The translations under genes were made by a program, and so were the position numbers. A model generated the notes under the pieces. The model made no database searches, was not told the origin of the DNA, and saw only the letters and a program-made list of their open reading frames with translations. This document shows, piece after piece, positions 2,236 to 21,207 of a stretch of 31,156 nt of DNA. How positions within the stretch are numbered: position 1 is the stretch's first letter; each line of letters opens with the position of its first letter. This DNA is from a virus: IMG/VR virus record IMGVR_UViG_3300042507_001323, positions 1-31,156 of that record. The stretch is one strand, 5' to 3'.

Positions 2236-2261
2236 TAACCACAAAATACAATAAATACTTA
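2236..2261 (+). promoter_or_regulatory. Candidate phage late promoter 1 (TAACCA-N14-TACTTA)
   Basis: TAACCA at 2236-2241 and TACTTA at 2256-2261 are separated by 14 bases. TACTTA begins 13 bases before the ATG at 2269. The same pair with the same spacing occurs at 6321, 8122, 10681 and 21182. It lies in the short gap after TerL. It does not match the host TTTG/TAnnTTTG consensus. Promoter function is inferred from recurrence and position. Confidence 0.65.
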
Positions 2262-2268
2262 GTAGGTT

Positions 2269-3675
2269 ATGGCAATGACATTAATAGCAGAACCGCAGGA
2301 CTTCACACCAGCGTACAACCCGTGCAAGTTTATTTACAACTCCACGAATAAAAACAACGAAGGGTTTAGATATATCTTTGACGTTTACGAACAAGGGACG
2401 GCTAACAAGATAGCAGAGTACCGAGTACTTCCTACCTTCGGGACGGGTTACGGCGAAGTTGACTTGAGTAAATTGTTAGGTGCTAAAGTTGGTCCCGACT
2501 TTCAACCAACTAACACCTCAGAGATTGACACACCGACTTCACGCTTTAACTACGATGTTAAGGTAGGCGAAGAGTACATTGTGACGTTTAACTATACGGC
2601 TAACTTAGTGAACAACGCAGGGAATGTAAAAATAACACCAACAGTCGCGCACACGTTTTTAGTAGGTGACCAAGTCGTAGTTGACGCAGGGACGAATACT
2701 TTAATTAGTGGCTTATGGACTGTAATTGCCGTGACGGGTACAACTGACTTCACTATTAACGCGGCATGGTCGAACGTGGTTGACGCAACGGAAAACGGGA
2801 CGGTTAAATATGCAGACAACCGAAAGACGATTATTCGAGACATTGATACGACTTTAGACAAGTGGGTTTTCAACGGGGCTTTGCCTTGGGTAAGTTTTCC
2901 TAACTACGCATTAACTGACTACCGATTAGACAATACGACTGCGCTGTTCTTGACTTCGATGTCCTACCGAAAGATGACCATAACACCAAACCAAGAAATT
3001 TGGTTCAATGGCTTTAACAACTCGGTAACGGGTCGTGTAGTGTTTAACAACTCAAACGGCGACTCATTCTATTATGACGTTACTAACACCGAAATAACTA
3101 CTCAGTTATGCGTGGCAAGTCCTAACCTTAACTTGACAATCATAAGCGGTACACTTCCGTTGATTAAGTCCGACACTACATTTTATGAGTTTTATTTTAC
3201 GGACGGAACAGCACCTCCCGACTCGGAAACATACACGTTTGACATTGACCAACGTTGTGCAATCAATGACTACTATTTAGTGTTTCTTGACCGCATGGGT
3301 TCTTGGGGCTCGTTTGCTTTTCCTCTTCGCTCTTACGAGACGGGGACAAGTACAAAGCAATCGTTTAACAAAACCGTTGAGGGCTACGTTAACGGGACGG
3401 AGTGGAGTTACGCAAGTGATGCAAGGGGAATGACTACCTATTCAAGCACGGTGGATAAAAACTTTCAACTCAATACAAACTGGATGAACGAACAAATGGC
3501 TTCCTACTTTCAAGAGTTGATTACGTCACCCGTAGTTTACTTTTGGGACGGCGGGCAATACTTAGCGTGTGTGGTTCAAGAAACAGCGTTTGAGGTTGAG
3601 CGACAAAAGAACAAGAATCTAATTAAAAAGACGGTTAACGTGAAGTTAGCGAACCAAGACAAGGTTAATATATGA
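2269..3675 (+). CDS. Probable virion tail/baseplate protein, 468 aa
   Basis: I do not recognise a named family. The protein is rich in T, N, D, Y and F with alternating beta-type sequence, typical of structural phage proteins, and has no signal peptide or membrane segment. A segment at about residues 115-190 (repeated short G/T/V turns such as VGDQVVVDAGTNTL) looks like a separate inserted beta domain. The gene overlaps the next, 883-aa, gene by 4 bases, so the two are translated as a pair; the partner looks like a receptor-binding or distal tail protein. The position in a late operon directly behind a candidate promoter fits a virion part. A distal tail or baseplate role is inference. Confidence 0.6.
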   Translation: MAMTLIAEPQDFTPAYNPCKFIYNSTNKNNEGFRYIFDVYEQGTANKIAEYRVLPTFGTGYGEVDLSKLLGAKVGPDFQPTNTSEIDTPTSRFNYDVKVGEEYIVTFNYTANLVNNAGNVKITPTVAHTFLVGDQVVVDAGTNTLISGLWTVIAVTGTTDFTINAAWSNVVDATENGTVKYADNRKTIIRDIDTTLDKWVFNGALPWVSFPNYALTDYRLDNTTALFLTSMSYRKMTITPNQEIWFNGFNNSVTGRVVFNNSNGDSFYYDVTNTEITTQLCVASPNLNLTIISGTLPLIKSDTTFYEFYFTDGTAPPDSETYTFDIDQRCAINDYYLVFLDRMGSWGSFAFPLRSYETGTSTKQSFNKTVEGYVNGTEWSYASDARGMTTYSSTVDKNFQLNTNWMNEQMASYFQELITSPVVYFWDGGQYLACVVQETAFEVERQKNKNLIKKTVNVKLANQDKVNI

Positions 3676-6323
3676 GTGTACAAATACAACTTGAGACGGG
3701 CTACCTTGACGTTAAAGAGGGTACAGCCTTCCCCCTTAATTTTGGTGTAGCGGATATTCGTGACGTAAGTAAACGTTCGGGTGCATTTAGTAAGACCATT
3801 ACGCTAACGGGGACGGCTAACAATCACAACTTACTAAACCACTATTACGACGTAAACATTCAGGCAGGAACGTTTAACATAAACACCTTAACACGTTGCT
3901 CAGTAATTCAGAACGGACTTCCAGTTTTAGAGTCTGGCTACCTTCAACTTGTCGCGGTTAACAAAGTACAAACGACTGCGGACTACGAAAACGAAGTTGA
4001 GTATGAGGTATTGATAAAAGACGAATCTTCGGACTTCTTCACCAAGTTAGGAAACAAGGAACTTACGGACTTAGACTTTACAGACCTTAACCACGAATAC
4101 CGGGCAATCAATGTAGTTAACTCATTCACCAACACGCAATCGGATGGCTACAAATACCTTGTCCCGTTTAAGGACTCGAATAACTATTACTTGCAGGAAA
4201 TGAAACCTGCTATCTACGCAAAGACCTACTTCGACCGTATCTTTGCACAAGCGGGGTTTAGTTACACTTGGTCTACGTTAACGGCTGCGCATTTCGACAA
4301 GTTGATTATTCCTTTCAATGGTGAAAAGTCATTGATTAGCAACGTGGACTATTTAGTAGAAGCAAACACTTCCTTTACTGACTCGGGTACAACTGCGGTA
4401 TTTATTAACCCAATTACGGGATGGACTGAGACACAAGACGCGTTTAGTTTATTCAACCCCACTACGGGTGCATACGATGTGCCTTTCAACTTGCAAGCGT
4501 CCGAAAGTGTAGTCTTTGAGTTTACGTTTACCGCAGATTTAACGCTTGTGAATAGCAACGCAGGAACGGCAACACTTCAATCGAACAACCTTTCTTATAA
4601 GCCATACTTTCAAATTGATTTAAACGGAACACCATACGCAACAACGAGCGGTTCACCTGCAGGAATAAGCGTACCTTTTGGAACTACTATACCAGTCGGT
4701 AATACTTCAATAGGTACTTTGTCGGGGACTTATTCAATGTTGGCAAGTAACGTAATTACAACGGACTTATTTACCATTAAAGGCGGTTCGTTGACTTTGG
4801 ACTATTGGACTGTTGGCGGTGTGTTTGCGCAAGTAGGTTTAGAAATAGACTTTACTTCGTTACAACTTCGCGTACTGCCGTCTTCGGACATTCTCGGTTA
4901 TGGTGCTGTCATCAACATGAATAACAGCGTCCCAAACAAAGTAAAACAAGCCGACTTTATTAAGTCATTGTTCACGATGTATAATTTATATACCGAACAA
5001 GACACCGACATTCCTAACAACTTGGTGCTAAAACACCGTGACGACTATTATGACCAAGGGCAGGAAGTTGATTGGACGTATAAGTTAGCAAAGGACAAAG
5101 ACCAAGCGTTACAATTCCTGCCTGAGTTGAGCGCAAAGAAACTTATTCTTACTTACAAGAACGACAGCGACGACCCGAACAAAATATACTTTGAAGCAAC
5201 TAAAGAAATTTACGGACAACTTGAGTTTATTTTCGACAACGAATATGTTAAAGGAATAGACACGAAAGAAATTACATTCAGTCCAACACCAATTGAGCGC
5301 AGTACTTTCAACGCTTACCTACCTATGCTTTCAGGTGAACCAAAAGTTAATATAAGAATTTTACACGATGGGGGTGTAGGTACGTGTGACGCTTACAACA
5401 TTTACGACTACGGGACTACTGGAGAAAGTGGTGTAACGACTTACCCAATTTTACACCATTGGGACGACCCTATTAACCCGACATTCGATATTCTATTTGC
5501 ACAGCCCGATTATATGTTTTACGAAGGTTACAACGTGACGAATAACAACCTTTACAACCTATATTGGAGACGCACGGTTAATCAAATAAACGTGGGTAAG
5601 ATGTTGACTGCGTTCTTCGACCTACGCGAAGACGATATACAAAGCCTCAAGTTAAATTCTAAGATACGAATAGACAACTCTTGGTGGACCATTAACAAGG
5701 TCATCGATTATGACTGCAACGCTCAAAACCTAACTAAGGTTGAGTTGATGAGTGTAGACACCGAAATAGACTTAGCCCCATTTGCTAAGGGGTCGGTTAC
5801 TCCAACGACGGTTGGCGACTTAGCAAGCCACACGGGAAGTATACACTTTAACAATTCATTCGTAGGTAACGTTATTCCGGGAACTTCAACGAGTGCAATT
5901 TACGGGCAAGGTAACGTTATCCAACCCGGTGTTAATGGTATCATCGTAGGCAATGGTAAGATGCTCGACCAAACGGGTATAGTTACCGAGCGACTAGGCG
6001 CGGACGTTGCGAAAATTGCAAGTCTTGCTATTTCGGAAGGGCTTCAGTTACCTATTGCAAAAACCACAGTTGACTACTATTTAACTACAAATAATTGTGT
6101 TCTTATATGTGTAAATATCACTGGAGCAATTAATGTTTATTTACCAAAGGCAAACGCAGAAAATATAGGTCAAGTATTTATTATCAAAGGGACAAACGGA
6201 TTTACAAATACTATTTACCCTTTTGGTACGGATGTGATTGATACTGCAATTAGTTATTCATTAACTTCTTTGTCAAGTGTTCGTTTATTATCAAATGGAG
6301 CAACGGCTTGGATTATTATTTAA
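3672..6323 (+). CDS. Large tail/receptor-binding protein, 883 aa
   Basis: The largest protein of the window. Residues 1-110 (ETGYLDVKEGTAFPLNFGVA, then SKRSGAFSKTITLTGTANN) resemble the N-terminal domain common in Bacteroidota phage tail proteins, as far as I can judge by eye. The middle, about 110-700, is beta-rich. From about 740 the sequence turns glycine/asparagine-rich (GTSTSAIYGQGNVIQPGVNG), like a fibre shaft, and the last 90 residues form a compact beta domain ending WIII. The DNA of this last part (about 6050-6323) is more AT-rich than the rest, which suggests a receptor-binding tip acquired separately. The gene overlaps its upstream partner by 4 bases. Receptor binding is inferred. 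Confidence 0.6.
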   Translation: MSVQIQLETGYLDVKEGTAFPLNFGVADIRDVSKRSGAFSKTITLTGTANNHNLLNHYYDVNIQAGTFNINTLTRCSVIQNGLPVLESGYLQLVAVNKVQTTADYENEVEYEVLIKDESSDFFTKLGNKELTDLDFTDLNHEYRAINVVNSFTNTQSDGYKYLVPFKDSNNYYLQEMKPAIYAKTYFDRIFAQAGFSYTWSTLTAAHFDKLIIPFNGEKSLISNVDYLVEANTSFTDSGTTAVFINPITGWTETQDAFSLFNPTTGAYDVPFNLQASESVVFEFTFTADLTLVNSNAGTATLQSNNLSYKPYFQIDLNGTPYATTSGSPAGISVPFGTTIPVGNTSIGTLSGTYSMLASNVITTDLFTIKGGSLTLDYWTVGGVFAQVGLEIDFTSLQLRVLPSSDILGYGAVINMNNSVPNKVKQADFIKSLFTMYNLYTEQDTDIPNNLVLKHRDDYYDQGQEVDWTYKLAKDKDQALQFLPELSAKKLILTYKNDSDDPNKIYFEATKEIYGQLEFIFDNEYVKGIDTKEITFSPTPIERSTFNAYLPMLSGEPKVNIRILHDGGVGTCDAYNIYDYGTTGESGVTTYPILHHWDDPINPTFDILFAQPDYMFYEGYNVTNNNLYNLYWRRTVNQINVGKMLTAFFDLREDDIQSLKLNSKIRIDNSWWTINKVIDYDCNAQNLTKVELMSVDTEIDLAPFAKGSVTPTTVGDLASHTGSIHFNNSFVGNVIPGTSTSAIYGQGNVIQPGVNGIIVGNGKMLDQTGIVTERLGADVAKIASLAISEGLQLPIAKTTVDYYLTTNNCVLICVNITGAINVYLPKANAENIGQVFIIKGTNGFTNTIYPFGTDVIDTAISYSLTSLSSVRLLSNGATAWIII

Positions 6324-6346
6324 CCAACATAAACACGAATTACTTA
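6321..6346 (+). promoter_or_regulatory. Candidate phage late promoter 2 (TAACCA-N14-TACTTA)
   Basis: TAACCA at 6321-6326 (its first three bases are the stop codon of the 883-aa gene) and TACTTA at 6341-6346, spacer 14. TACTTA begins 13 bases before the ATG at 6354, the same distance as at 2256/2269. An AAAAGG stretch follows and may act as a weak ribosome binding site. Confidence 0.65.
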
Positions 6347-6353
6347 AAAGGTT

Positions 6354-6824
6354 ATGGCACTACCGGGACAATACAACATTAAATACAAAACACGAGTACA
6401 TTTACAGCGTGCAATTCAACAAGAGATACAGCGTCAAGGCTTAGTACAACTTGGTACAATGAAAGACTCGATTCGTATTTCTGCGGGTAGTGGTGACGTA
6501 AACAATTTGTATGTAGAAATTAGTGCTATCTATTACTATATGTTTTTAGACAAGGGTGCGGAACTAAAAAACGGTGGTAACATTCGCCCGCACTACATTA
6601 CTCAAAACGCTCTTGCTTCTAATAATGGTCAAAGATTCATTCGTGAAGCAATCGATGAGTATTTGATTTATATGATTAAAACTTACCCATTCCTAAACAC
6701 TGACTCGGTAGGCATGACAGTTGACAATGTTAAAGTAAACATTCAATATAACTTGTTCGGTTCTGAGGATGACAAGTGGAATAAGATATTTGACTACGAT
6801 AAGATGTGGAATATTTACGGCTAA
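6354..6824 (+). CDS. HK97 gp10-like neck or tail-completion protein, 156 aa
   Basis: The pattern fits the loose HK97 gp10 family: an N-terminal helix rich in Q and R, a GTMKDSIRIS segment, a beta hairpin, then YYYMFLDKGAELKNGGNIRP, where the family usually has a tyrosine, an acidic/glycine turn and RP before a final helix (here HYITQNALAS). Members sit at the head-tail joint or complete the tail. It stands alone behind its own candidate late promoter. Its stop overlaps, in CTAA at 6821-6824, the stop of the convergent minus-strand gene. Assignment is by sequence pattern only. Confidence 0.5.
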   Translation: MALPGQYNIKYKTRVHLQRAIQQEIQRQGLVQLGTMKDSIRISAGSGDVNNLYVEISAIYYYMFLDKGAELKNGGNIRPHYITQNALASNNGQRFIREAIDEYLIYMIKTYPFLNTDSVGMTVDNVKVNIQYNLFGSEDDKWNKIFDYDKMWNIYG

Positions 6825-7558
6825 GACTTATTCAGTTGTAGTTCTTCGACCATTGAGAGCATATTAAACACGAACACCAACGGCAAGTCCGTAACTGCGT
6901 CTATTTTGGTAAGGTCTTCGTTGGCGATGTCGTAAAGTAGTTTTTCCCACGACCATTTAGTAAATACCTTTTCTTCGGCTTCGGCTTTGAGGTCTTCCTC
7001 GTCTAGTTCTTCCGTTTCGGTTTCTTCGATTACGGGGTTAAATAGATTTTCGTAGCGTTTCTTAAAGTCGTTTGAATAGGCGATGTAATTATTTACCGCA
7101 CCAAATACTTCGTTTATACTGACCTCATTAAATACCTCTTTACGGCTCACTAGACTATACGAATACGGCTCAAATACCACGTTACCCCACTCGTCAGTTT
7201 TCCAGCGTTTGTATAATATACTAAGCAAAAGGGTAAAATTCTCGGTGGTTTGACTAATATAATACTCAAGGTCTATGAACTCCCCTAAGGTAAGCGCGTC
7301 CAACGGCTTCAACATAAAACCTTTCACGGCTTGTTTAGGCTTATTGGACGGCTCACGCTTAATAAAAGATACCTGACTGGCAAGGTCAATGAGTTCTTCG
7401 GGGGTTAGGTCTTCCAACTCTTCTGGGTCTGTATCGGAGAGTATAGAAAGACTTTCCAACGTGTGTAGAAACACGCTGTTAAATTCGTTAGGGTCTATTG
7501 AATTAAGTTCGACCCATTGGTTAACCGTTACCTCGTTCCAACTCTTCGGTAGTTTCAT
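6821..7558 (-). CDS. Putative tail-assembly chaperone-like protein B, 245 aa
   Basis: The start is placed at the ATG at 7558 (MKLPKSWNEVTVNQWVELNS); a TTG at 7561 would add one residue. The protein begins with the same kind of motif as its upstream neighbour (LPxxxNELTVxQ-like, helical, acidic), so the two look like paralogues. The C-terminal third is acidic (ETEELDEEDLKAEAEE) and then WSWEKLLYDIAN. No catalytic motif is seen. It is read from the minus strand, unlike every other structural gene, and overlaps the upstream gene by 38 bases in another frame, as tail chaperone pairs often do. Chaperone function is inferred and weak. It could also be an unrelated virion or host-takeover protein. 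Confidence 0.5.
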   Translation of the reverse strand: MKLPKSWNEVTVNQWVELNSIDPNEFNSVFLHTLESLSILSDTDPEELEDLTPEELIDLASQVSFIKREPSNKPKQAVKGFMLKPLDALTLGEFIDLEYYISQTTENFTLLLSILYKRWKTDEWGNVVFEPYSYSLVSRKEVFNEVSINEVFGAVNNYIAYSNDFKKRYENLFNPVIEETETEELDEEDLKAEAEEKVFTKWSWEKLLYDIANEDLTKIDAVTDLPLVFVFNMLSMVEELQLNKS

Positions 7559-8078
7559 CAACTTTCTTTTCGGTTATTTTGGTTATCTTTTGTAGAATAT
7601 CGAGAATGTACGGGAATGCAATTTCTGCTGTTTGTTTCTTGAACAAATTAGTTTTCAATTTAAGGTGCGCAGGTGCGTAGTGTTCGGTTCGTGTAAGGTC
7701 CGTACGTTTAAAAAGAATTGAAAGCGTTTGAGCCGTAAAATTGTCGTCTTGACTGCGGTAAATTTTCTCAATCATTCCTAAGTCTTTAACACCGATATTC
7801 TCGGAGGTCTCATAAGTGTATTTATCAATGACAATTTGCGTCACCTTTTCGGTGCTTGGTAGGTCGGACTTGTTAAAGTCTTTAATGTAGTTAGCGAACT
7901 CGTCAAGTTCCATTGAATCGAAGGCTTTTTCTTCAACCCCTAAGTAAATAAATTTCTCTATCCACTTTTCGATGGTGTCTAACTCGATGTTGTTTTCGAT
8001 TTTGTTGAGGTGGTCGAACTGCTCAACGGTTAACTCGTTTAGTTGGTTGGGTATTTCAGCCCCGTAAATTTGAATCAT
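7521..8078 (-). CDS. Putative tail-assembly chaperone-like protein A, 185 aa
   Basis: First gene of the two-gene minus-strand operon. It starts MIQIYGAEIPNQLNELTVEQ, a motif shared with the next protein. Mostly helical and acidic at the end (EKKVDETTEELERGNG). Tail chaperone genes of other siphoviruses come as an overlapping pair linked by a frameshift; here the downstream frame is open from a TAA near 7576 to the overlap, so a +1 or -2 shift in the A-rich stretch before the stop would give a fusion, but the downstream gene also has its own ATG. A host-type -7 box lies 16-23 bases upstream of the start. Function is a tentative inference. Confidence 0.5.
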   Translation of the reverse strand: MIQIYGAEIPNQLNELTVEQFDHLNKIENNIELDTIEKWIEKFIYLGVEEKAFDSMELDEFANYIKDFNKSDLPSTEKVTQIVIDKYTYETSENIGVKDLGMIEKIYRSQDDNFTAQTLSILFKRTDLTRTEHYAPAHLKLKTNLFKKQTAEIAFPYILDILQKITKITEKKVDETTEELERGNG

Positions 8079-8093
8079 TGCTTAGATTTTAAC

Positions 8094-8101
8094 CAAAGGT
8101 A
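8094..8101 (-). promoter_or_regulatory. Host-type promoter -7 box for the minus-strand operon
   Basis: On the minus strand the sequence reads TACCTTTG, a full match to the Bacteroidota -7 consensus TAnnTTTG, located 16 bases before the ATG at 8078. A TTTTG occurs upstream but 24 bases away, longer than the usual 17-20, so the -33 box is weak. The short leader fits the other host-type promoters at 26531 and 29171. Confidence 0.5.
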
Positions 8102-8121
8102 TAAAAATAATGTTTAAAAAT

Positions 8122-8147
8122 TAACCAAAACTTTTTTAGCGTACTTA
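8122..8147 (+). promoter_or_regulatory. Candidate phage late promoter 3 (TAACCA-N14-TACTTA)
   Basis: TAACCA at 8122-8127, TACTTA at 8142-8147, spacer 14; TACTTA starts 14 bases before the ATG at 8156. The downstream bases TTAAG match those at 10707-10711, after late promoter 4. It lies back to back with the host-type promoter of the minus-strand pair. Confidence 0.65.
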
Positions 8148-8155
8148 TTAAGTCA

Positions 8156-9112
8156 ATGGAAGGTTTACCAACTTACAAAATTACCATAGACGAAGCCTAC
8201 AACGACGGCACTGAACCGCTTGGTGTAGACGCTATAGCGTTCACTGCAAACCCTGCCGTATTGGTTAAGGGTGTCGCGTTTAAGTCCCAAGCAAAAAGTC
8301 ACTTTGCAGACGAGAAAAAATATCGTATTACTGCACCTGCAATGATTCCTATGGACATTTACAGACGTGATGATGACATGGGCGAGTACTATGTACAATT
8401 TAGCGAGGTCGAAATAGACACGATTTTCAAAGACTTCATGTTGAACTTGAACAATAGAAACCTTTTCAACTTAGAACACGAAGGAGACCAAATCGTTCCT
8501 GCCTACATTCTCGAAGCGTGGTTAGTTGACAACCCCGAAGCGGACAAGGCGAAAAGCACTTTTGGTATTGAGGTACCTAAAGGAACTTTGATGGTCACGG
8601 CACAAATCACGGACACGGACTATTATAACAAGTTAGTCGAAGCAGGTCAAGTAGGCTTTTCTATTGAGGGCTTTCTTGGTCTTAAATTAAGCAACCAAAT
8701 AAAAATAAATAATATGTTACCAGACGGAGAACACACGCTCGAAGACGGCACATTGATTATCGTAAAAGACGGTCAAGTTGTTGACGTGCAAATTCCTACG
8801 ACTGAGGAGCAAGTAATGGAAGTTGAAGCGTCTACGGAAGTGGAATTAGCAGACACAACCGAAGTAACCGAAGAGTCCGTTAAGGAAGAAGAGGTTGTTG
8901 AAGTTGAAGCAGCTATTGACCCTGCAGCAGACACCGACGCTATTTTGGCAATCGTTAGCCCATACATTGAGCAACGAATTTCCGAACTATTGCAAGTTAT
9001 CGCAGACCTAAAGAATGAACTAACTGAAACGGAGGAAGTCGCACCCGTTGAAGAAATCAAAATGACAGCGGCGCAAAAGTTTAACCAAGTAATTGACTTC
9101 TTAAAAAAATAA
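8156..9112 (+). CDS. XkdF-like capsid maturation protease fused to scaffold
   Basis: 318 aa. Residues 1-175 match the XkdF-type phage serine protease pattern: PLGVDAIAFTANPAVLVKGV, AMIPMDIYRRDDDMGEYYV, NLFNLEHEG with candidate catalytic H108, and GQVGFSIEG with candidate nucleophile S169. Residues 215-318 are very acidic (VTEESVKEEEVVEVEA), followed by a coiled-coil helix and a basic C-terminal helix ending FNQVIDFLKK. This looks like an internal scaffold with a capsid-binding end. The major capsid gene follows after 5 bases. Protease plus scaffold in one chain is known in other phages; the assignment of the catalytic residues is by motif only. Confidence 0.8.
   Translation: MEGLPTYKITIDEAYNDGTEPLGVDAIAFTANPAVLVKGVAFKSQAKSHFADEKKYRITAPAMIPMDIYRRDDDMGEYYVQFSEVEIDTIFKDFMLNLNNRNLFNLEHEGDQIVPAYILEAWLVDNPEADKAKSTFGIEVPKGTLMVTAQITDTDYYNKLVEAGQVGFSIEGFLGLKLSNQIKINNMLPDGEHTLEDGTLIIVKDGQVVDVQIPTTEEQVMEVEASTEVELADTTEVTEESVKEEEVVEVEAAIDPAADTDAILAIVSPYIEQRISELLQVIADLKNELTETEEVAPVEEIKMTAAQKFNQVIDFLKK
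9082..9107 (+). promoter_or_regulatory. Possible variant late promoter before the capsid gene (TAACCA-N14-TAAAAA)
   Basis: TAACCA at 9082-9087 is followed after exactly 14 bases by TAAAAA at 9102-9107. The second box begins 16 bases before the ATG at 9118, the same distance as at 10701/10717. The site lies inside the end of the protease gene. Three of six bases differ from TACTTA, so it could be chance. Confidence 0.35.
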
Positions 9113-9117
9113 AGACA

Positions 9118-10056: not shown

Positions 10057-10074
10057 AATTATTTAGATAGTTTC

Positions 10075-10101
10075 AGGGGGGTTAACCGCCCCCTTTTTTT
10101 T
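10075..10101 (+). terminator. Intrinsic terminator after the capsid gene
   Basis: Stem AGGGGG (10075-10080) pairs with CCCCCT (10089-10094), loop of 8 bases, followed by a run of T to 10101. A strong stem and eight T bases in a row. It separates the capsid transcript from the tail tube gene. Confidence 0.85.
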
Positions 10102-10122
10102 AACTCTTAAATACTAAATAAA

Positions 10123-10629: not shown

Positions 10630-10649
10630 TTAGATAAACACGAATTTAG

Positions 10650-10677: not shown

Positions 10678-10680
10678 ATT

Positions 10681-10706
10681 TAACCAACTTTTGTAAATAC
10701 TACTTA
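10681..10706 (+). promoter_or_regulatory. Candidate phage late promoter 4 (TAACCA-N14-TACTTA)
   Basis: TAACCA at 10681-10686 and TACTTA at 10701-10706, spacer 14, directly after a terminator and 16 bases before the ATG at 10717. The place between a terminator and the long portal-to-lysis operon is where a promoter is needed, which is the best positional support for the motif. Confidence 0.7.
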
Positions 10707-10716
10707 TTAAGATAGT

Positions 10717-11064
10717 ATGATATACATTGAACAAAACCAAAACAATACAATAGCTTTAACGCTTACCGAAAGTGCGACAATTACAGCACCGACATGGTTG
10801 TTTAAATTCGTGTGGGAGATGGACCAAACACTCGCACCTATTTATTGGGTAGGTGTGGACTTTTCGCAGTACGTTAATCGTTACAATCTTTTCTTTTTGG
10901 ATGAGGGTGTAGACGTGACGTTTCGCATAGGTCAGTATAGATATTGGGTTTACGAAAGTCCAGTGCCAATTATAGTTGACCCAAACACGAATGATAACGG
11001 TTTAACTTTAGTTGAAGAGGGGCGTATGGTGGTCGAAGGTGTATCAAATTCAATTTATGAATAA
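10717..11064 (+). CDS. Small virion-associated protein, 115 aa, function unknown
   Basis: First gene of the long late operon. The protein is beta-type: MIYIEQNQNNTIALTLTE, then a strand pair with FKFVWEM, RYNLFFLDEGVDVTFRIGQY and YWVYESP. It has the look of small beta-sandwich proteins found near the head-tail genes of Bacteroidota phages, but I cannot name a family. Its stop and the portal start share one base (TAATG at 11064). Likely a head or tail accessory protein by position. Confidence 0.55.
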   Translation: MIYIEQNQNNTIALTLTESATITAPTWLFKFVWEMDQTLAPIYWVGVDFSQYVNRYNLFFLDEGVDVTFRIGQYRYWVYESPVPIIVDPNTNDNGLTLVEEGRMVVEGVSNSIYE

Positions 11065-14865: not shown

Positions 14866-16403
14866 CAAGCTATATAACACTACTTTCTAAAATAGAGCAA
14901 TTTTGTAACGCTCACTTGCAAATTAAAAAGTATGGGGGTGAGTTTCGTGAACAGATGCCTAACTTTTCTACTAAAGACGAGAAGTACCCGGTTGTTTTCG
15001 TTGAACCTTTGAGCGACCTTGAAGACTTAAACACGAACCAATTTAGCATAAACGTTTACTGCGTTGACATTATACAAAAAGACCGCGCCAATTTAAACAC
15101 TATTCTAAGCGACTGTCAACTCATATTGAAAGACATGTATGTTTATTACATAAACGACATGGACGCGCAGTTAGATGTGGTTGGAACGGCTACAATGACA
15201 CCTTTAAATAACTACGATTTAGATTACGTTGCTGGGTGGGTAATGGGTATTACTTTTGAGGTTGCTACTTATGGACCTTGTGAAATACCAATGGAACCGA
15301 TTACCCCTACACCCGTAGAATGCGCAGACGGAAATGTCGAAAACTCGGACGGAAGTTACACGGCAACTGTCGCAAGTGGTGGTTTATTAGTTTTGCCCGA
15401 TGTGAACCTTGTAGTTAAAGACCAAGATGGAAATATACTAAGCGACGAGATTTACCCAAGCGTTCAAGACGAAGAAATAATTGTAACACTTCCTGCGTGT
15501 GAACCTGCTACCTACGACCTTTACAATTCAGTTCCTACCTTAATCACTTCGGGTTCTATTGACTGCGGCGACAACGCTACAATAACAGCACCCGACGGAA
15601 TTGTACACATTAAGAAAGAAGATGACGGCACACTTGCCAATGTAAGCACACCTTCAAACGCTACAACTGAGTACATTATTCAAAACAATGACATCACGGT
15701 TAACGGTGGTAACTTATTTACTATTCACGCAGAAGAGCCGCTTGATATTCGATTAAAGAATCAAACGGGAGGTACGATAACACCGCAAAGCGTAACGCAC
15801 AACGGAAACCAAGACCACGTAGACATCGTAATTAATACGTCTTCATTTATGCCCGTGGGCGCGACCTTGCAAAAGACGGGACAAACAACGTCCTATGCAA
15901 CGGGTGACGATGGCGCAACGCAACGCGGAAGGCTCACGAATTTCACGACCTTGCCGTTTAATAACCCTCACGGAAACACGAATAGGTTTACAAATAAAAA
16001 TGGCGGTCAAGGTTATGGCGGTGGGGTTGCTATTGATTGGTCAACGTTTAACGGCTCAACGGTACTCGCTTACTATTTTGGAGATTCAACTACGCGTACT
16101 TGGACGGCTCAACTTACCCAATATACAAGTAGCACGATTGAAGGATTGAACGGTTGGCAGTTATTTAATATTTATGAAGCTATGAACATCATGAACTTCA
16201 ACTTTCCGGGTGGCTTTCTTTACAATTACGCACCATTCAATTTAACTAGACGTTATATGTGGGTAAGTACCAACCAAACGGGGGCAAATGGAATAAGCAC
16301 AGAGACGGCAGGACCAAACCCATTTACTACGTCTTCAAAAATATCGGGACTTTGGGGTATTTGGGTGCGTGTGTGTAACGTGAATGGAACTACAATAAGT
16401 TAA
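14862..16403 (+). CDS. Tail-terminator-like domain fused to adhesin with Lcl-type end, 513 aa
   Basis: Residues 1-145 form a compact alpha/beta domain (TSYITLLSKIEQFCNAHLQI, KDEKYPVVFVEPLSDL, QLILKDMYVYYIND, then GWVMGITFEVATYGPC) that resembles the small tail-completion proteins of Bacteroidota phages. Residues 150-225 are an Ig-like repeat (NSDGSYTATVASGGLLVLPD). About 330-513 is a surface domain with GLNGWQLFNIYEAMNIMNF, YMWVSTNQT and LWGIWVRVCN, the spacing of a DUF1566/Lcl lectin-like domain. One chain may therefore both close the tail and bind the cell. It overlaps the tape measure by 4 bases. Domain calls are by eye. Confidence 0.65.
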   Translation: MTSYITLLSKIEQFCNAHLQIKKYGGEFREQMPNFSTKDEKYPVVFVEPLSDLEDLNTNQFSINVYCVDIIQKDRANLNTILSDCQLILKDMYVYYINDMDAQLDVVGTATMTPLNNYDLDYVAGWVMGITFEVATYGPCEIPMEPITPTPVECADGNVENSDGSYTATVASGGLLVLPDVNLVVKDQDGNILSDEIYPSVQDEEIIVTLPACEPATYDLYNSVPTLITSGSIDCGDNATITAPDGIVHIKKEDDGTLANVSTPSNATTEYIIQNNDITVNGGNLFTIHAEEPLDIRLKNQTGGTITPQSVTHNGNQDHVDIVINTSSFMPVGATLQKTGQTTSYATGDDGATQRGRLTNFTTLPFNNPHGNTNRFTNKNGGQGYGGGVAIDWSTFNGSTVLAYYFGDSTTRTWTAQLTQYTSSTIEGLNGWQLFNIYEAMNIMNFNFPGGFLYNYAPFNLTRRYMWVSTNQTGANGISTETAGPNPFTTSSKISGLWGIWVRVCNVNGTTIS

Positions 16404-16406
16404 TCT

Positions 16407-16637
16407 ATGGCAAACTATAAATTTATCTTTTTCGAAGAGACAATAAGCGACCCAACTATAGAGGTGGTTTATATTACTGACGACCTTAAAAACAAAGCGT
16501 GTAGAGTTGACGTTCTTTTGTCTACACCTGCACAAGATTATGGTGTGAACTTAGATGGTTTTACGTACACTTCGACGTTTACCACTGCTGAGGTTGTTGA
16601 GTGGACTTTTCACGAGTTAAAGAAGTACGAAATATGA
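16407..16637 (+). CDS. Small protein, 76 aa, function unknown
   Basis: It begins 4 bases after the tail fusion gene and ends with an ATGA overlap with the holin gene. Beta-type sequence (NYKFIFFEETISDPTIEVVY, then VDVLLSTPAQDYGVNLDGF), no signal peptide, no recognised family. Position between tail and lysis genes suggests a late minor virion or lysis accessory protein, but nothing in the sequence settles it. Confidence 0.55.
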   Translation: MANYKFIFFEETISDPTIEVVYITDDLKNKACRVDVLLSTPAQDYGVNLDGFTYTSTFTTAEVVEWTFHELKKYEI

Positions 16638-17047
16638 AGTATTTAATCACGGGACTCGTTGCGGTTTATTCCTTCTTTGCGCCTATCCAAGTTATTTTAT
16701 TAGTCATTGGGTTGGCTATTTTCTTAGATACCTTTGTCGCGGTTCGTTTGACTACGGAAAAGTTTTCAAGTCGTCGCCTTCGTCAGGGGTTAGTAGGTAA
16801 AATGATTACATACGAAAGTGCGGTTATTCTTTTCTTCCTCATTGATTTTGCAATGGTTAACGACATGGTTAAAACCGTCTTTTCAGTTGACTATACACTC
16901 ACAAAATTGGTTGGGTTATTCCTTGCCAGTATCGAAGTGGTTAGTATTGATGAAAAGATACGACGAAAATACGGGGACGACAAAGGTTTCATTGCACGTT
17001 TTAAGTCGTTTATCAAAAAAGCCAAAGCAATCAAAGACTCGTTTTAA
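16634..17047 (+). CDS. Holin, phage holin 4-like
   Basis: 137 aa with start at the ATG overlapping the previous stop; an upstream in-frame start at 16601 lies inside the previous gene and is less likely. Hydrophobic segments at about 4-31 (ITGLVAVYSFFAPIQVILLV and on), 58-77 (MITYESAVILFFLIDFAMVN) and 89-103, with a charged C-terminal tail (IKKAKAIKDSF). The arrangement and the SRRLRQGLVGKMITYE block fit the holin 4/TIGR01593-type family. It forms the first gene of a holin, spanin, endolysin cassette. It makes holes in the inner membrane so the endolysin can act. Confidence 0.75.
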   Translation: MKYLITGLVAVYSFFAPIQVILLVIGLAIFLDTFVAVRLTTEKFSSRRLRQGLVGKMITYESAVILFFLIDFAMVNDMVKTVFSVDYTLTKLVGLFLASIEVVSIDEKIRRKYGDDKGFIARFKSFIKKAKAIKDSF

Positions 17048-17505
17048 TGAAGTACTTAATTATTTTACTATTGGTGTGTAGTTGTTCAGTTAATTACCAC
17101 CTCAACAAAGCAATCAAAAAAGGTTATCGGTGCGACACTATCAGCGACACCATCCGGGTAACAAAAGTAGATAGTTTCCTTATATGGAAACATGACACAA
17201 CGTATTGGGAGAAAATAATCACGTCAAAAGATACTATTATTCACTACAAGACTTCCTACATACCAAAAACACGCTACGAAATACGCTACGATTACAAGCG
17301 ATTTAACGATAGTTTGAAAGTAATTCGATTAATGTATAAGGACTCACTACGAAACGCGCTTAAAACGGCTAAAAATGACGTTAAACGCGAACGAATAGTA
17401 CAACGCAACAAGCCCGTGAGACAATTTAAACAACTATTTGTTATTTTAGGGTTTCTGCTCACTGTGTTTTTTGTCTGTGTGATGTTAAAAAAACGTGTAC
17501 TTTAG
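17047..17505 (+). CDS. Probable single-gene spanin (u-spanin) lipoprotein
   Basis: 152 aa. The N-terminus is a lipoprotein signal (KYLIILLLVCSCS), with the lipid-carrying cysteine most likely C13 in V-C-S-C. The body is hydrophilic with long extended and helical parts (ITSKDTIIHYKTSYIPKTRY). The C-terminus is a membrane helix at about 128-147 (LFVILGFLLTVFFVCVML) followed by KKRVL. An outer-membrane anchor at one end and an inner-membrane anchor at the other is the plan of u-spanins, which fuse the two membranes in Gram-negative lysis. It sits between holin and endolysin. Function is inferred from topology and neighbours; no sequence family was recognised. Confidence 0.7.
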   Translation: MKYLIILLLVCSCSVNYHLNKAIKKGYRCDTISDTIRVTKVDSFLIWKHDTTYWEKIITSKDTIIHYKTSYIPKTRYEIRYDYKRFNDSLKVIRLMYKDSLRNALKTAKNDVKRERIVQRNKPVRQFKQLFVILGFLLTVFFVCVMLKKRVL

Positions 17506-17518
17506 TCAAAAAAACCTT

Positions 17519-18082
17519 ATGAATCTAGAAACTTACGTTAAATTTATTAAGAAGTGGGAAGGTGGGTTAAGCCTTGACCCTTCGGACTCTTGTTCCTCGA
17601 TGTATTGCCCGACTCCATTGAAGGGTAAAAAATACCATACTAACATGGGAATTTGTTACAGCACTTGGGTTGGTATGTTCGGCACTACAAACGACGAGCG
17701 GTTCTTAAACATGAACTCAGAAGACTGGTTTAAGATATTCAAGAAAGGCTATTGGGACAAGTGCAAAGGTGACGAATTCAAATGCTTTTCCGTTGGAGTC
17801 ATCGTTTCGGGAATGGCTTGGGGTTCAGGTCAACACCGCGCAATCATAACACTACAACAAGCTTTAAACAATTTAGGTAAACACGTTGCCATTGACGGCA
17901 AAATCGGACCGCAGACGTTGAAGGCTGCGAATGAGTTAAACGACCGCATCTTATTCGATGAGTTAATTAGACTTCGTGAAGCGTTCTTTATTGCAATTAG
18001 TAAGCCCGGAATGAAAAACGCAAAATTTAGAAGGGGTTGGTTGAATAGGTTAGCCGACTATCATGAAACGTTTAGACCATGA
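17519..18082 (+). CDS. Endolysin, GH108 muramidase with PG-binding end
   Basis: 187 aa from the ATG at 17519. A GTG at 17495 would extend it into the spanin gene. The N-terminal domain matches glycoside hydrolase 108: ETYVKFIKKWEGGLSLDP with candidate catalytic E14 in WEGG, and later YWDKCKGDEFKCFSVGVIV. The C-terminal part (LQQALNNLGKHVAIDGKIGP, QTLKAANELND) matches the PG_binding_3-like domain that follows GH108 in such enzymes. It cleaves the MurNAc-GlcNAc bond of peptidoglycan. There is no signal peptide, so it depends on the holin. The stop overlaps the next start as ATGA. Confidence 0.85.
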   Translation: MNLETYVKFIKKWEGGLSLDPSDSCSSMYCPTPLKGKKYHTNMGICYSTWVGMFGTTNDERFLNMNSEDWFKIFKKGYWDKCKGDEFKCFSVGVIVSGMAWGSGQHRAIITLQQALNNLGKHVAIDGKIGPQTLKAANELNDRILFDELIRLREAFFIAISKPGMKNAKFRRGWLNRLADYHETFRP

Positions 18083-18852
18083 CACGCAAAAGACTATTTT
18101 TCGACATTGAGACAAGCCCGAATATAGTCACAAGTTGGCGAATCGGGTACAACCTTAACATCTCACACGATAACATAGTAAAGGAACGCGCTATTATTTG
18201 CGTGTGTTGGAAGTGGGAAGGTGAATACAAAGTCCATGCGTTGACATGGGACAAGAAACAAGACGACAAGACCCTACTAAAAAAGTTTATTCAGGAACTC
18301 AACAAAGCAGACGAAATAATCGGACACAACGGGGATAGGTTCGACATTAAATGGTTGCGTACACGCTGTATTTATCATGACATTGATATGTTTCCTACAT
18401 ACCGCACCATTGACACGCTTAAATACGCTAAAAGTGGGTTCTATTTTAATTCTAATAAACTAGACTATATTAGTAAATACTTAGGCGTTGGTGCAAAGTC
18501 GGACACTGGGGGCTTCGACACGTGGAAAAAGATTATTTTCGACAAAGACTCTGAAGCTTTAAACCACATGGTTGAGTACTGCAAAAACGATGTCGTAATT
18601 TTAGAAAAGGTTTACGACAAATTACGTCCTTATTCTAAACACAAAGTCAACTATTCTACGTTGCGAGGTGGCGAACGTTGGGAGTGTCCTAACTGCGGAA
18701 CTCCAAACGTAAGATTAAGCAAAACTTATACGACAGCTGCAGGTACTATTATGCACTCATTGCTTTGCAAAGACGGATGTCGTTCAGCTTATTCAGTAAA
18801 CAATAAAGTTTACATGGACTGGCTCAAGTACAAAATGATTAATAATTTATAG
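18079..18852 (+). CDS. DEDDy-type 3'-5' exonuclease with zinc ribbon
   Basis: 257 aa. The RNase H-like exonuclease motifs are all visible: FFDIET with D9 and E11 (motif I), IIGHNGDRFDIKWL with D89 (motif II), and YCKNDVVILEKVY with Y167 and D171 (motif III, DEDDy spacing). About residues 203-234 hold a zinc-ribbon pattern, CPNC and CKDGC (C203, C206, C230, C234). Substrate is not known; DNA or RNA 3' ends are possible. It is the last gene of the late operon, translated from an ATGA overlap with the endolysin, and is followed by a terminator. A replication enzyme in the late operon is out of place. Confidence 0.8.
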   Translation: MTRKRLFFDIETSPNIVTSWRIGYNLNISHDNIVKERAIICVCWKWEGEYKVHALTWDKKQDDKTLLKKFIQELNKADEIIGHNGDRFDIKWLRTRCIYHDIDMFPTYRTIDTLKYAKSGFYFNSNKLDYISKYLGVGAKSDTGGFDTWKKIIFDKDSEALNHMVEYCKNDVVILEKVYDKLRPYSKHKVNYSTLRGGERWECPNCGTPNVRLSKTYTTAAGTIMHSLLCKDGCRSAYSVNNKVYMDWLKYKMINNL

Positions 18853-18890
18853 TATCTTCGTACCACTTCTTTTTTTCATGTTAGGTTTAT

Positions 18891-18923
18891 AGGGGTAATC
18901 TTCAGGGGTTACCCTTATTTTTT
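18891..18923 (+). terminator. Intrinsic terminator at the end of the late operon
   Basis: AGGGGTAA (18891-18898) pairs with TTACCCTT (18909-18916), with one G-T pair and a 10-base loop, followed by ATTTTTTG. It closes the operon that starts at 10717 and begins the non-coding control region that runs to 19129. Confidence 0.75.
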
Positions 18924-18933
18924 GTCCTATTCC

Positions 18934-18960
18934 GTCACACATTTAGCCTAATTTTGTGAC
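18934..18960 (+). promoter_or_regulatory. Possible operator: GTCACA/TGTGAC dyad
   Basis: GTCACA at 18934-18939 and TGTGAC at 18955-18960 form a perfect 6-base inverted repeat with a 15-base centre. It is in the 277-base non-coding stretch (18853-19129) before the early genes. Apart from this dyad, the terminator and one promoter-like pair, I see only AT-rich sequence there, so this stretch may also hold the replication origin. Evidence is weak. Confidence 0.3.
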
Positions 18961-19063
18961 AAAACGCAAATTCCTAAAAAGTTTTTTTCGTGCTGAAACC
19001 CTTGTAAACATTGACTTTTAGAAAAAACCTTAATTTTTTTTGTTAAAAAAGTGTCGACAAGTA

Positions 19064-19093
19064 TTGTGTATTAATTTTAAAGCAGTAATTTAG
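19064..19093 (+). promoter_or_regulatory. Possible host-type early promoter
   Basis: TTGT at 19064-19067 and TAATTTAG at 19086-19093 with an 18-base spacer resemble the Bacteroidota TTTG/TAnnTTTG pair, with one mismatch in each box. It lies 37 bases before the first early ATG. A second weak match is TTG at 19011 with TAATTTTT at 19031-19038. The early operon needs a promoter here, which supports the call. Confidence 0.4.
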
Positions 19094-19129
19094 CAAAGTC
19101 ATAAGGCACAAAACAAAAAACAAAACGAG

Positions 19130-19261
19130 ATGAAAACAAAAATTGAACAAGAAATTAAAGATTTACAAAATGCGTGGAAAAACGGATTTTCTGGAATGAG
19201 TATTAATGAATACACAACAACATTACATTTACTATATCAAAAATTAAAATCAGTAAAATAA
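19130..19261 (+). CDS. Small early protein, 43 aa
   Basis: A short reading frame behind the early control region: KTKIEQEIKDLQNAWKNGF and so on, with no recognisable family. The start ATG follows an A-rich leader, CAAAACGAG, that recurs before the next gene (CAAAACGAC). The helical, charged sequence and the leader make it a likely gene, but no homologue is visible in the window. Possible host-takeover factor by position only. Confidence 0.5.
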   Translation: MKTKIEQEIKDLQNAWKNGFSGMSINEYTTTLHLLYQKLKSVK

Positions 19262-19309
19262 TTAAAACGGGGGGTGCGCATCCGTAACGCACGACAAAAA
19301 CAAAACGAC

Positions 19310-19426
19310 ATGAAAAACTTAATCAACTATTTCACACCACGCAACGCCGACGAGCGTAACACTTTAGGCGGTCTTTTCGCAGGACTACTTATCTTATCAA
19401 TCGTATTTTATTTTTACTCACTATAA
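19310..19426 (+). CDS. Small membrane protein, 38 aa
   Basis: Encodes a polar N-terminal half (KNLINYFTPRNADERNTLGG) and one hydrophobic helix at about 21-38 (LFAGLLILSIVFYFYSL). A hairpin (GTGCG at 19274-19278 with CGCAC at 19288-19292) lies between this gene and the previous one. The A-rich leader is the same as before 19130. No family recognised; a single-pass inner membrane protein is the safe statement. Confidence 0.5.
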   Translation: MKNLINYFTPRNADERNTLGGLFAGLLILSIVFYFYSL

Positions 19427-19436
19427 TTTTTAAACC

Positions 19437-19652
19437 ATGACAGCTTACGAATTTAAACAATCAGTAATCATCGAGCAGAAAAACGATAAAATTGAAGCAC
19501 TTATTGAGGGCTACAAAGAAATACTTAGACAACTAAACCACAACCAAAAGGTCGCAAAGACGGACGCAGAGAAAACCGCTTACTACACGGCAAGAGACAT
19601 CGTAGAAAGCACAATGATAGAAATAGCAGATATTAACGTAACCGATATTTAA
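19437..19652 (+). CDS. Small early protein, 71 aa, function unknown
   Basis: Helical, charged protein (FKQSVIIEQKNDKIEALIEG, ILRQLNHNQKVAKTDAEKT), probably a coiled coil. Part of the run of small early genes spaced by a few bases or overlapping. No family recognised. The ATG follows TTTTTAAACC, and there is no Shine-Dalgarno site, as expected for Bacteroidota. Confidence 0.6.
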   Translation: MTAYEFKQSVIIEQKNDKIEALIEGYKEILRQLNHNQKVAKTDAEKTAYYTARDIVESTMIEIADINVTDI

Positions 19653-19654
19653 CC

Positions 19655-19831
19655 ATGTACGAAATAGTAGAAGTAGCTTGCAAGTATTGCTCAGGAACTG
19701 GAGTAGGTGAATATATAAGCGAGTACGGACCTTTTGGGTTCTCAGTAAAAGACGAATGCCACGAATGCGAAGGCGAAGGAATTAAAGTAACATTAATAGA
19801 CCCTTATGAAAGTAAAGACTTTGAGTATTAA
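19655..19831 (+). CDS. Small zinc-finger-like protein, 58 aa
   Basis: Contains two copies of the DnaJ-type CxxCxGxG motif: CKYCSGTG at about residues 9-16 and CHECEGEG at about 35-42. Two such units can bind one zinc ion. Starts 2 bases after the previous stop and overlaps the next gene by 26 bases. Proteins this small with a DnaJ-like zinc centre occur in several phage genomes without known function. Confidence 0.6.
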   Translation: MYEIVEVACKYCSGTGVGEYISEYGPFGFSVKDECHECEGEGIKVTLIDPYESKDFEY

Positions 19832-19967
19832 AGTAGACCTCAAGACGTTTGAGGAAACGATTAAAAGACAGTTAGCCATCACCCACGCAGACCGTAAGAA
19901 CTGGTGGACCAACTACAACGCAGAATTAGTAAACAGAATTAGTGAAATTAAAAAAGCAACGACATGA
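19806..19967 (+). CDS. Small early protein, 53 aa, function unknown
   Basis: Starts inside the end of the zinc-finger gene and ends with an ATGA overlap with the next gene. The sequence (KVKTLSIKVDLKTFEETIKR, HADRKNWWTNYNAELV) is basic and helical. Coding support comes from the tight overlaps on both sides. No family recognised. Confidence 0.5.
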   Translation: MKVKTLSIKVDLKTFEETIKRQLAITHADRKNWWTNYNAELVNRISEIKKATT

Positions 19968-20170
19968 AAACACCAATTGAACAATTAATTGAAGACCTAA
20001 TAAAACATGATTTAATCAAAGCGGATGGATTTACAACCACGCTAATGTTAAAGGCAAAGCAAATTGAATACGAACAAATACTTAATACTCATAAATTGGC
20101 TAAATTTTTTACAAGTGGTGATGAGTATTACAATACAACCTTTAAAAAAACGAACGATGAAACGATTTAA
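19964..20170 (+). CDS. Small early protein, 68 aa, function unknown
   Basis: Helical protein starting KTPIEQLIEDLIKHDLIKAD. The first residues resemble the MTPxEKA start of two other small phage proteins (20300, 27109) only loosely. Starts in an ATGA overlap with the previous gene and overlaps the next by 14 bases. The DNA is rather AT-rich compared with its neighbours. Confidence 0.55.
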   Translation: MKTPIEQLIEDLIKHDLIKADGFTTTLMLKAKQIEYEQILNTHKLAKFFTSGDEYYNTTFKKTNDETI

Positions 20171-20303
20171 AGTAATTTACAAAGGCTTCGCTCACAAGAC
20201 TTGGACCGAGATGTACAAAATAGTGACCGCAGTAAGCAAAGAAGACGCACGAAAAAAAGCGGACTTATGGGAAGGAGTAATCATTGACATTTACGAGATA
20301 TGA
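20157..20303 (+). CDS. Small basic protein, 48 aa, function unknown
   Basis: Start taken at ATG 20157 (MKRFKVIYKGFAHKTWTEMY); longer forms starting at 20064 would overlap the previous gene for most of its length. The sequence looks like a small alpha/beta fold (strand, then VSKEDARKKADLWE helix, then IIDIYEI strand). Followed by an ATGA overlap with the next gene. No family recognised, but the fold pattern resembles small phage proteins that modify host functions. Confidence 0.5.
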   Translation: MKRFKVIYKGFAHKTWTEMYKIVTAVSKEDARKKADLWEGVIIDIYEI

Positions 20304-20539
20304 CACCAATAGAAAAAGCACGAGATTTAGTTGGAAATTTTTATATAATTGAAGACAGTAAAACAAATGATGACGCATGGATGGACTATTATTTATCTAT
20401 ACGTTCCGCGCAAGTTGCAGTTGAATTAGCACTTGAGTTTGCAGGTGGAGATATGAATGAGCAATTTGATAAAATACTTTATCTTGTTGAAGTAAAACAC
20501 GAACTTGAATCAATGCTTATTAATCAATTAAAACAATGA
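20300..20539 (+). CDS. Small MTPxEKA-type protein, 79 aa
   Basis: Begins TPIEKARDLVGNFY, like the protein at 27109 (TPKEKADELVSKYY), and continues with a helix (AQVAVELALEFAGG) and a final helix (LYLVEVKHELESML) that align loosely with ALIAVDEIL and YWVNVRKEIEKL of that protein. The two are distant paralogues, a small type common in Bacteroidota phages. Its DNA is more AT-rich than the neighbours, as is the other copy. Function unknown. Confidence 0.6.
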   Translation: MTPIEKARDLVGNFYIIEDSKTNDDAWMDYYLSIRSAQVAVELALEFAGGDMNEQFDKILYLVEVKHELESMLINQLKQ

Positions 20540-20790
20540 ACAACGACTTAAAACTCATTTCTTCCATCGCGATACTCCCGGTACTTGCCGACTTTTTAGA
20601 AGACCTAAACGAAGACAAAGCGTTCCGCACCGAAATGAAGATGGCAACGCAGAACTTAATCAGTCAAATTCGAAAACTCGATGAACGCGTAATGAAGAAC
20701 GCATCACAAGAGACCTCAGAACAACAAGTAAACATTCAAATAGCATTTAGACAATGGTTAAGAACGGCACAACATACGGAAGAAAGATAA
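20536..20790 (+). CDS. Small helical protein, 84 aa, function unknown
   Basis: Helical, charged (IAILPVLADFLEDLNEDKAF, QNLISQIRKLDERVMKN), probably a dimer through a coiled coil. Overlaps the previous gene by 4 bases and the next, DnaA-like, gene by 37 bases. No family recognised; possible partner of the replication proteins by position. Confidence 0.55.
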   Translation: MNNDLKLISSIAILPVLADFLEDLNEDKAFRTEMKMATQNLISQIRKLDERVMKNASQETSEQQVNIQIAFRQWLRTAQHTEER

Positions 20791-21197
20791 AATATATTCT
20801 CAGCAAACTACCAAAGCGGTCATTTTACACGATGCACGAGTTTTTTCTAGTTTGTCCTTACACTCACGAGGAACTAAAGATAGCCAACCGCTCACGCGAC
20901 CGAATGCAATGGCGACAGCTTGGAATGGCTTGGGCAACGTTGACCGGGTTGTCTTTAGCTGAGTCGGGGAAGCTGTTTAACAAGGACCACGCAACGGTTA
21001 TTTATTCGCAGGAAATGATAGTTTTGGCTCTCGACGGTTATCATCCACTCCTTGCGGAAAAGTTAAACGAGGTGCTGGAGTGCATCGAAATAACGAATGC
21101 TCACGCGAATGATTATAATACCGCTTTGATTATTTCAGCGCGACGTATTGAAAGCCTGTTGAAAAATAAGTATTCACGAATTAACCGAATTAGTTAG
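20754..21197 (+). CDS. DnaA domain IV-like DNA-binding protein, 147 aa
   Basis: Residues 51-90 (MQWRQLGMAWATLTGLSLAE, SGKLFNKDHATVIYSQEMI) match the helix-turn-helix of the DnaA C-terminal domain, including the DHATV signature at 78-82 that reads DnaA boxes in the DnaA family. There is no AAA+ ATPase domain. The protein likely binds DNA at an origin or operator and could act as an initiator, a helper, or a decoy for host DnaA boxes. It is the last gene before a candidate small RNA and the replication genes. The N-terminal 50 residues are not recognised. Confidence 0.75.
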   Translation: MVKNGTTYGRKIKYILSKLPKRSFYTMHEFFLVCPYTHEELKIANRSRDRMQWRQLGMAWATLTGLSLAESGKLFNKDHATVIYSQEMIVLALDGYHPLLAEKLNEVLECIEITNAHANDYNTALIISARRIESLLKNKYSRINRIS

Positions 21198-21207
21198 ATA
21201 GTACTTA
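21182..21207 (+). promoter_or_regulatory. Candidate phage promoter 5 (TAACCG-N14-TACTTA), before the small RNA
   Basis: TAACCG at 21182-21187 and TACTTA at 21202-21207, spacer 14; one base differs from the TAACCA box. It overlaps the end of the DnaA-like gene. No reading frame starts in the next 100 bases; a structured, terminator-ended region follows. This separates the motif from start codons and so argues that it is a promoter and not a ribosome binding site. Confidence 0.65.

Follow-up and report, generated by a model that had tools for sequence, protein, structure and literature searches.

Phage-encoded sigma factors for late genes are already known. In T4, the small late sigma factor gp55, together with gp33 and gp45, redirects the host polymerase to the late genes; the T4 late promoters, which depend on the sliding clamp, consist only of a -10-type TATAAATA box. 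The lytic phages phiEco32 and 7-11 also encode a sigma factor, and use host promoters for their early genes and a phage motif for their structural genes (PMC4331800). For phage ECF promoters, the absence of a recognisable -35 element has been described (PMC5333181). The regulators RinA, Ltr and ArpU of Gram-positive phages bind repeats upstream of a host-sigma promoter, and regulators of the RinA/Ltr type are encoded at the same genomic position as the sigma-like gene considered here (PMC13123087).

Here, we describe a new, well-resolved variant in a 31,156-nt stretch of DNA (the window), an IMG/VR virus record from an uncultured phage of Bacteroidota-type bacteria. A motif of two boxes is very probably the late promoter of a phage family and is most likely read by the host RNA polymerase core together with an ECF-like sigma protein, the product of ORF 29618-30121. 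The arrangement resembles that of phiEco32 and 7-11 in its phage sigma gene, its host promoters for early genes and its phage-specific motif at the structural genes. However, the promoters of those phages are a short contiguous TAATGTATA-like element, whereas two separated boxes at a fixed 14-bp spacing are found here, and this is a 30-kb Bacteroidota-type phage with a sigma-like protein that curated sigma models miss. Unlike the T4 late promoters and the phage ECF promoters as described, these promoters have a -35-type box, and in contrast to the RinA, Ltr and ArpU systems both boxes are phage-specific. The distance between the boxes is similar to that in the Bacteroidota primary sigma promoter, with which the variant second box TACTTT shares TAnnTT, but the late boxes lack the -33 TTTG as well as the TTTG of the -7 box. 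A literature search, limited in that it mostly left out subscription papers, returned no report of this system. It would represent a late-gene switch for Bacteroidota phages, where few regulatory systems appear in the literature searched.

A pattern search of the whole window for TAACCR-N14-TACTTA gave six exact copies, all on the plus strand:

2236-2261, plus strand: predicted late promoter copy 1, TAACCA-N14-TACTTA, exact match; directly after terL; ATG at 2269
6321-6346, plus strand: predicted late promoter copy 2, exact match; overlaps the stop codon of ORF 3672-6323; ATG at 6354
8122-8147, plus strand: predicted late promoter copy 3, exact match; ATG at 8156 (protease-like gene, then capsid gene)
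10681-10706, plus strand: predicted late promoter copy 4, exact match; just 3' of a terminator; ATG at 10717 (gene before the portal gene)
21182-21207, plus strand: predicted late promoter copy 5, with TAACCG, exact match; precedes a structured non-coding RNA
29899-29924, plus strand: predicted late promoter copy 6, exact match; inside the sigma-like gene, upstream of terS and terL

The five copies listed in an earlier note (2236, 6321, 8122, 10681 and 21182) are each found where it placed them, on the plus strand and with a spacing of 14, and that at 10681 directly follows a terminator as described; the sixth exact copy, at 29899, had been missed. Within the window, no exact pair occurs on the minus strand at spacing 14 or on the plus strand at the remaining spacings between 0 and 39, and a reversed control pattern does not match. 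The note's estimate of about 0.01 chance matches was reproduced, as 0.012 exact copies are expected on both strands at the real base composition, and the plus-strand hexamer counts (28 and 18) give 0.016 pairs expected at one given spacing. A chance origin of the motif is ruled out by the six copies against about 0.01 expected and by the strand bias in relatives. A further copy had been proposed at 9082, before the capsid gene (TAACCA...TAAAAA), but none of 30 distinct homologous regions carries the motif there; this near-copy, which falls within the coding end of gene 8156-9112, was rejected as a chance coding look-alike.

To follow the motif beyond the window, the capsid protein and ORF 20754 served as queries in scans for relatives, and many related contigs were obtained. 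In the 55 contigs with a major capsid protein (MCP) about 80% identical or more, the coding strand has 113 exact copies at spacing 14 and the opposite strand has none; these copies are not independent events, as the set includes near-duplicates. Other spacings in the same contigs give 0 to 3 exact pairs. Across 74 distinct 26-mers, which were picked as exact matches so that the boxes are fixed by choice, the spacer carries close to 0 bits except at the bases adjoining the first box. When the upstreams were chosen by orthology and not by motif, the late motif was found in 100 of 104 at the four virion operons; among distinct sequences it is kept in 14 of 15 for copy 1 (2236), 22 of 22 for copy 2 (6321), 34 of 36 for copy 3 (8122) and 30 of 31 for copy 4 (10681), with TACTTT as a common variant of the second box. 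Copy 5 (21182) is kept in most relatives although the RNA sequence behind it changes. The host -7 box TAnnTTTG, which a Bacteroidota sigma-A promoter would carry, is present in none of the 104 late upstreams, and the late motif is found before none of the tested intervening virion genes, the capsid gene included, in orthologous upstreams. The motif is thus bipartite with fixed spacing, stands before late operons and combines conserved boxes with a free spacer. The earlier note had proposed a phage-specific promoter and had named absence of the motif before the same operons of relatives as the result that would speak against it; boxes and spacing are instead kept there in dozens of relatives, around a free spacer, and the proposal stands. 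In a phage group that shares replication genes, and in which a search of six records of about 30 kb found no sigma homologue, the late motif is absent from 293 kb.

More distant phages, with capsid proteins 60-67% identical, carry other box pairs at the same loci and in nearly the same geometry. These pairs are TAACTA/TACTTA, TAACTA/ACCAAG and TAAACA/TCCAAT, further TAAACA or TAACAA with TACAAT and an A-rich box with TCCAA, and TAACCA/TCCAAG, in which the spacer is one base longer. Within one phage, the boxes of different promoters have changed together. When the promoter upstream of the ORF 8156 orthologue was compared with that upstream of the ORF 10717 orthologue in 15 phages, the two agreed at 11.8 of 12 box bases within a phage and at 9.5 between phages (11.75 and 9.4 when collapsed to 12 lineages), and none of 20,000 permutations reached the observed within-phage match in either set. 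First and second boxes have, moreover, been re-combined between lineages. Such drift in concert within a phage, with re-combination between lineages, is what a single cognate protein that reads DNA with two domains should produce, and what a host factor should not. De novo counting of dyads in single distant genomes was swamped by coding composition.

The candidate for this protein is encoded upstream of the terminase genes:

29618-30121, plus strand: ECF-like sigma-fold protein of 167 aa, proposed promoter reader (AlphaFold2 model, structural matches and PHROG hits of homologues)

With 18 close sequences as input, AlphaFold2 gave a model of insufficient quality (pLDDT 50); with distant homologues added (21 diverse sequences), the mean pLDDT rose to 74 and a two-domain helical layout was obtained. 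N-terminal helices (residues 2-26, 33-46, 53-69 and 74-79) and C-terminal helices (106-112, 115-126, 132-139 and 143-165) are joined by a low-confidence linker stretch (75-104). At moderate model confidence, this is the predicted sigma-2/linker/sigma-4 layout of ECF sigma factors, which consist of no more than these two linked domains in about 150-200 aa. The top-ranked PDB matches in the Foldseek and VIA lists are almost all sigma factors, including SigK, SigH, SigL and sigma-E. The whole length matches SigK (4nqw, Z 8.3, rmsd 4.4), the N-terminal half SigR region 2 (1h3l, residues 1-76, Z 7.3) and the C-terminal half 3mzy (residues 97-167, Z 8.3) and several other region-4 domains, where a Z of about 8 is within the range reachable by chance for helical folds and no Foldseek match is below E 0.02. 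Some homologues match the sigma factor family phrog_351 (1.2e-5 and 1.1e-3), and hhalign aligned the expected region with bacterial ECF sequences, weakly (pairwise E 0.03, probability 2%). The window protein itself has no sigma-family match in Pfam, NCBIfam or PHROGs, a TIGR02937 search of the window found nothing, and phmmer and hmmsearch against PDB sequences gave no sigma match. Since it falls below every curated sigma profile, we call it ECF-like and do not file it as an ECF member.

The genomic setting also recurs, as the order of small genes, sigma-like ORF and terS-terL is found in distant phages, whose homologues are 34-43% identical. Within the C-terminal helix-turn-helix, the sequence follows the first box: TTKRDLA...HFNID occurs with TAACCA, RSSGDL with TAAACA, and the single homologue with TKKREMA has a TAACTA first box, a pairing that rests on five or six lineages. 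From sequence and model together, the product of ORF 29618-30121 is most likely the partner of the late promoter and active as a sigma factor. Neither tblastn of the protein against isolated phages nor a GTDB scan with its alignment returned a relative, so that no cultured host is known.

This same gene contains the copy at 29899, whose 12 box bases are all invariant in 20 distinct homologues of ORF 29618-30121. There are 110 codons for invariant, degenerate amino acids, of which only 23 use a single codon, and the box codons N94, N95, Q96, L102 and K103 are among these. The longest invariant nucleotide run of the gene, TACTTAAAATAGA, starts at the second box, in a region that encodes linker of low model confidence. 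By this comparison the boxes are under selection and frozen at synonymous sites. Three small genes and then terS and terL follow 3' of the copy, which probably drives the terminase genes. In the distant lineages examined, no copy was detected inside the sigma gene with the patterns tried.

The sigma-like gene is itself preceded by a promoter of a different type:

29150-29178, plus strand: host-type promoter TTG-N18-TATATTTG of operon 29195/29434/29618, Bacteroidota primary-sigma type

Among 21 distinct orthologous upstreams of the sigma operon, TAnnTTTG is present in 19 and the late motif in none. TAnnTTTG also occurs in 31 of 43 relatives' upstreams of the recombination gene at 26561 and in 35 of 52 for the minus-strand pair starting at 8078. 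The late motif had been said to differ from the host consensus, which agrees with the Bacteroidota TTTG/TAnnTTTG that stands in its place before the sigma operon and some early genes. With a host-type box before the sigma operon and the late motif absent there, production of the phage sigma would depend on host sigma-A, and that of the late mRNAs on the phage sigma. In the proposed mechanism, host sigma-A would serve both the early genes and, through TTG-N18-TATATTTG at 29150, the sigma operon. As the phage sigma builds up, it would direct the polymerase to the six promoters, with TAACCA as a -35-type box and TACTTA or TACTTT as a -10-type box, 20 bp apart from start to start. This would turn on packaging (from the promoter within the sigma gene), virion and lysis genes together with one structured small RNA, and the motif-driven genes would be late in timing. 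The two minus-strand genes at 6821-8078, inside the late region, are conserved in relatives and belong to no known family; near 8101 they carry a host-type TACCTTTG box of their own, which stands back to back with the late promoter at 8122.

Shine-Dalgarno sequences are not used in Bacteroidota. At the four virion operons, the gaps from the box end to the ATG are 7, 7, 8 and 10 nt, and the 13-16 bases given earlier hold when counted from the first base of TACTTA. Start sites were placed by the convention for the host -7 box, with TACTTA at -12 to -7 (PMC6847099); the Bacteroidota -7 box spans -12 to -5 (PMC6847099; PMC9723704). If TACTTA starts at -12, the leaders are 1, 1, 2 and 4 nt, copy 1 having a predicted +1 at about 2268 for the ATG at 2269, and the four late mRNAs would be nearly leaderless. 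Leaders of 1-4 nt, if true, would offer a clear way to test leaderless translation in a phylum without Shine-Dalgarno use. In F. johnsoniae, 87% of mRNAs have leaders above 10 nt (PMC6847099), and 5.5% of mRNAs are leaderless in F. psychrophilum (PMC9723704).

As the earlier note observed, the copy at 21182 leads to a non-coding RNA and not to a start codon:

21214-21311, plus strand: structured non-coding RNA, 5' hairpin and terminator hairpin with kissing loops

The 5' hairpin pairs 21218-21223 with 21238-21243 and the terminator hairpin pairs 21258-21269 with 21295-21306; the loop of the former (21224-21231) pairs with 21280-21287 in the loop of the latter. Between relatives, the bases of this kissing helix, usually 8 nt long, have been exchanged while the pairing is preserved. 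In 20 sequences, 17 of the 26 pairs changed on both sides and 90% of cells are paired, falling to 40-58% when the structure is slid by one to three columns. The RNA shows strong covariation in at least two phage groups, and Rfam gave no meaningful match. A search with the RNA model found the same RNA in lineage G014, whose promoters are TAAACA/TACAAT, and in the group without a detected sigma homologue, where a host-type TATATTTG box lies roughly at the position of TACTTA in the window. One RNA is thus controlled by a host-type box in one group and by the late promoter in the other, which supports TACTTA as the -10 element. In some relatives the promoter-RNA cassette is placed elsewhere (L096:3269, L102:6996 and L105:7009). 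Directly upstream of the RNA locus in the window, 20754-21197 encodes a 147-aa protein with a match to the DnaA C-terminal helix-turn-helix (Pfam E 7e-9), possibly an origin-binding protein.

These observations bear on other ways of reading the motif. ORF 29618, or another phage protein, might be a RinA/Ltr-style activator that binds TAACCA and brings in polymerase with host sigma-A at a weak -7 box. A RinA-family match, weak and below the cut-off of the model, exists for one homologue (TIGR01636, E 0.003), and TACTTT is similar to the first six bases of TAnnTTTG, but we regard such an activator as unlikely. The -10 box is not that of the host; it varies between lineages (TACTTA, TCCAAG, TACAAT, ACCAAG) in step within each phage, and this concerted change is unexplained if host sigma-A reads it. 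The targets of Ltr are repeats upstream of a host promoter and not a single box pair at fixed spacing, whereas the late upstreams lack a host-type -7 box and have a single box pair per site, and the fold search gives full-length ECF sigma factors. Reading by a host alternative (ECF) sigma factor is very improbable. Bacteroidota do have several ECF sigma factors, F. psychrophilum for instance eight alternative sigma factors of which seven are ECF, but in the ECF-type motif given in the same study the -10 box is CGT (PMC9723704), and the box pairs differ between related phages with the phage sigma-like gene differing alongside.

Least credible, to the point that we give it hardly any weight, is that the boxes form a translation-initiation or other non-promoter element, or are a by-product of conserved coding sequence. 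TACTTA does stand at a near-constant 7-10 nt from the ATG at four sites, but at 21182 and inside the gene at 29899 the motif has no start codon, in line with the earlier argument that it is not part of a ribosome site. The boxes are fixed while the spacer is free, those in the sigma gene are fixed at synonymous positions, and other phages have a host-type TATATTTG box at the equivalent small-RNA position. Nor does the motif qualify as a T7-type single-subunit polymerase promoter, which would be contiguous over about 20 bp, as the 14-bp spacer carries little information; no match to a phage polymerase gene was found among the ORFs scanned, larger ones included.

Returning to the late promoter read by a phage sigma factor, we see about an even chance that these phages hold an undescribed minimal sigma family of Bacteroidota phages, in which the -35/-10 specificity has been re-tuned repeatedly, box by box, in about a dozen lineages with the geometry nearly kept. 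Such a family would make almost leaderless late mRNAs in hosts that mostly have leaders, carry one promoter inside its own gene and drive a kissing-hairpin RNA. It would offer a natural series of sigma-promoter pairs, with each box changed separately between lineages, and so a record of how a signal and its reader evolve. As several versions of protein and promoter are known from sequence, it could be tested directly how a sigma factor shifts its specificity and still keeps its regulon, and the pairs could serve as orthogonal promoters in Bacteroidota genetics.

Some further observations concern the phage itself. INPHARED holds no near-identical phage among isolated phages. A terL scan of GTDB returned one relative, L242, on a contig of a small-genome pond MAG, in which the phage contig is probably misbinned; it has a divergent sigma-like homologue (hmmsearch E 2e-26) and AACA...ACAAT-like promoters. 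The end of a tRNA-like sequence (GGTTCGAATCCCGTATAGACTA), absent from the window, lies just upstream of the orthologue of the gene at 28582 in L224 and L228. The first 1.1 kb of the window (1-1128) is a 77% identical copy of its end (30014-31156), with 127 identical bases at 1002-1128 and 31030-31156, and the record is probably a circular phage assembled from two strains. As the contig wraps round, genes 85-1106 duplicate 30096-31134.
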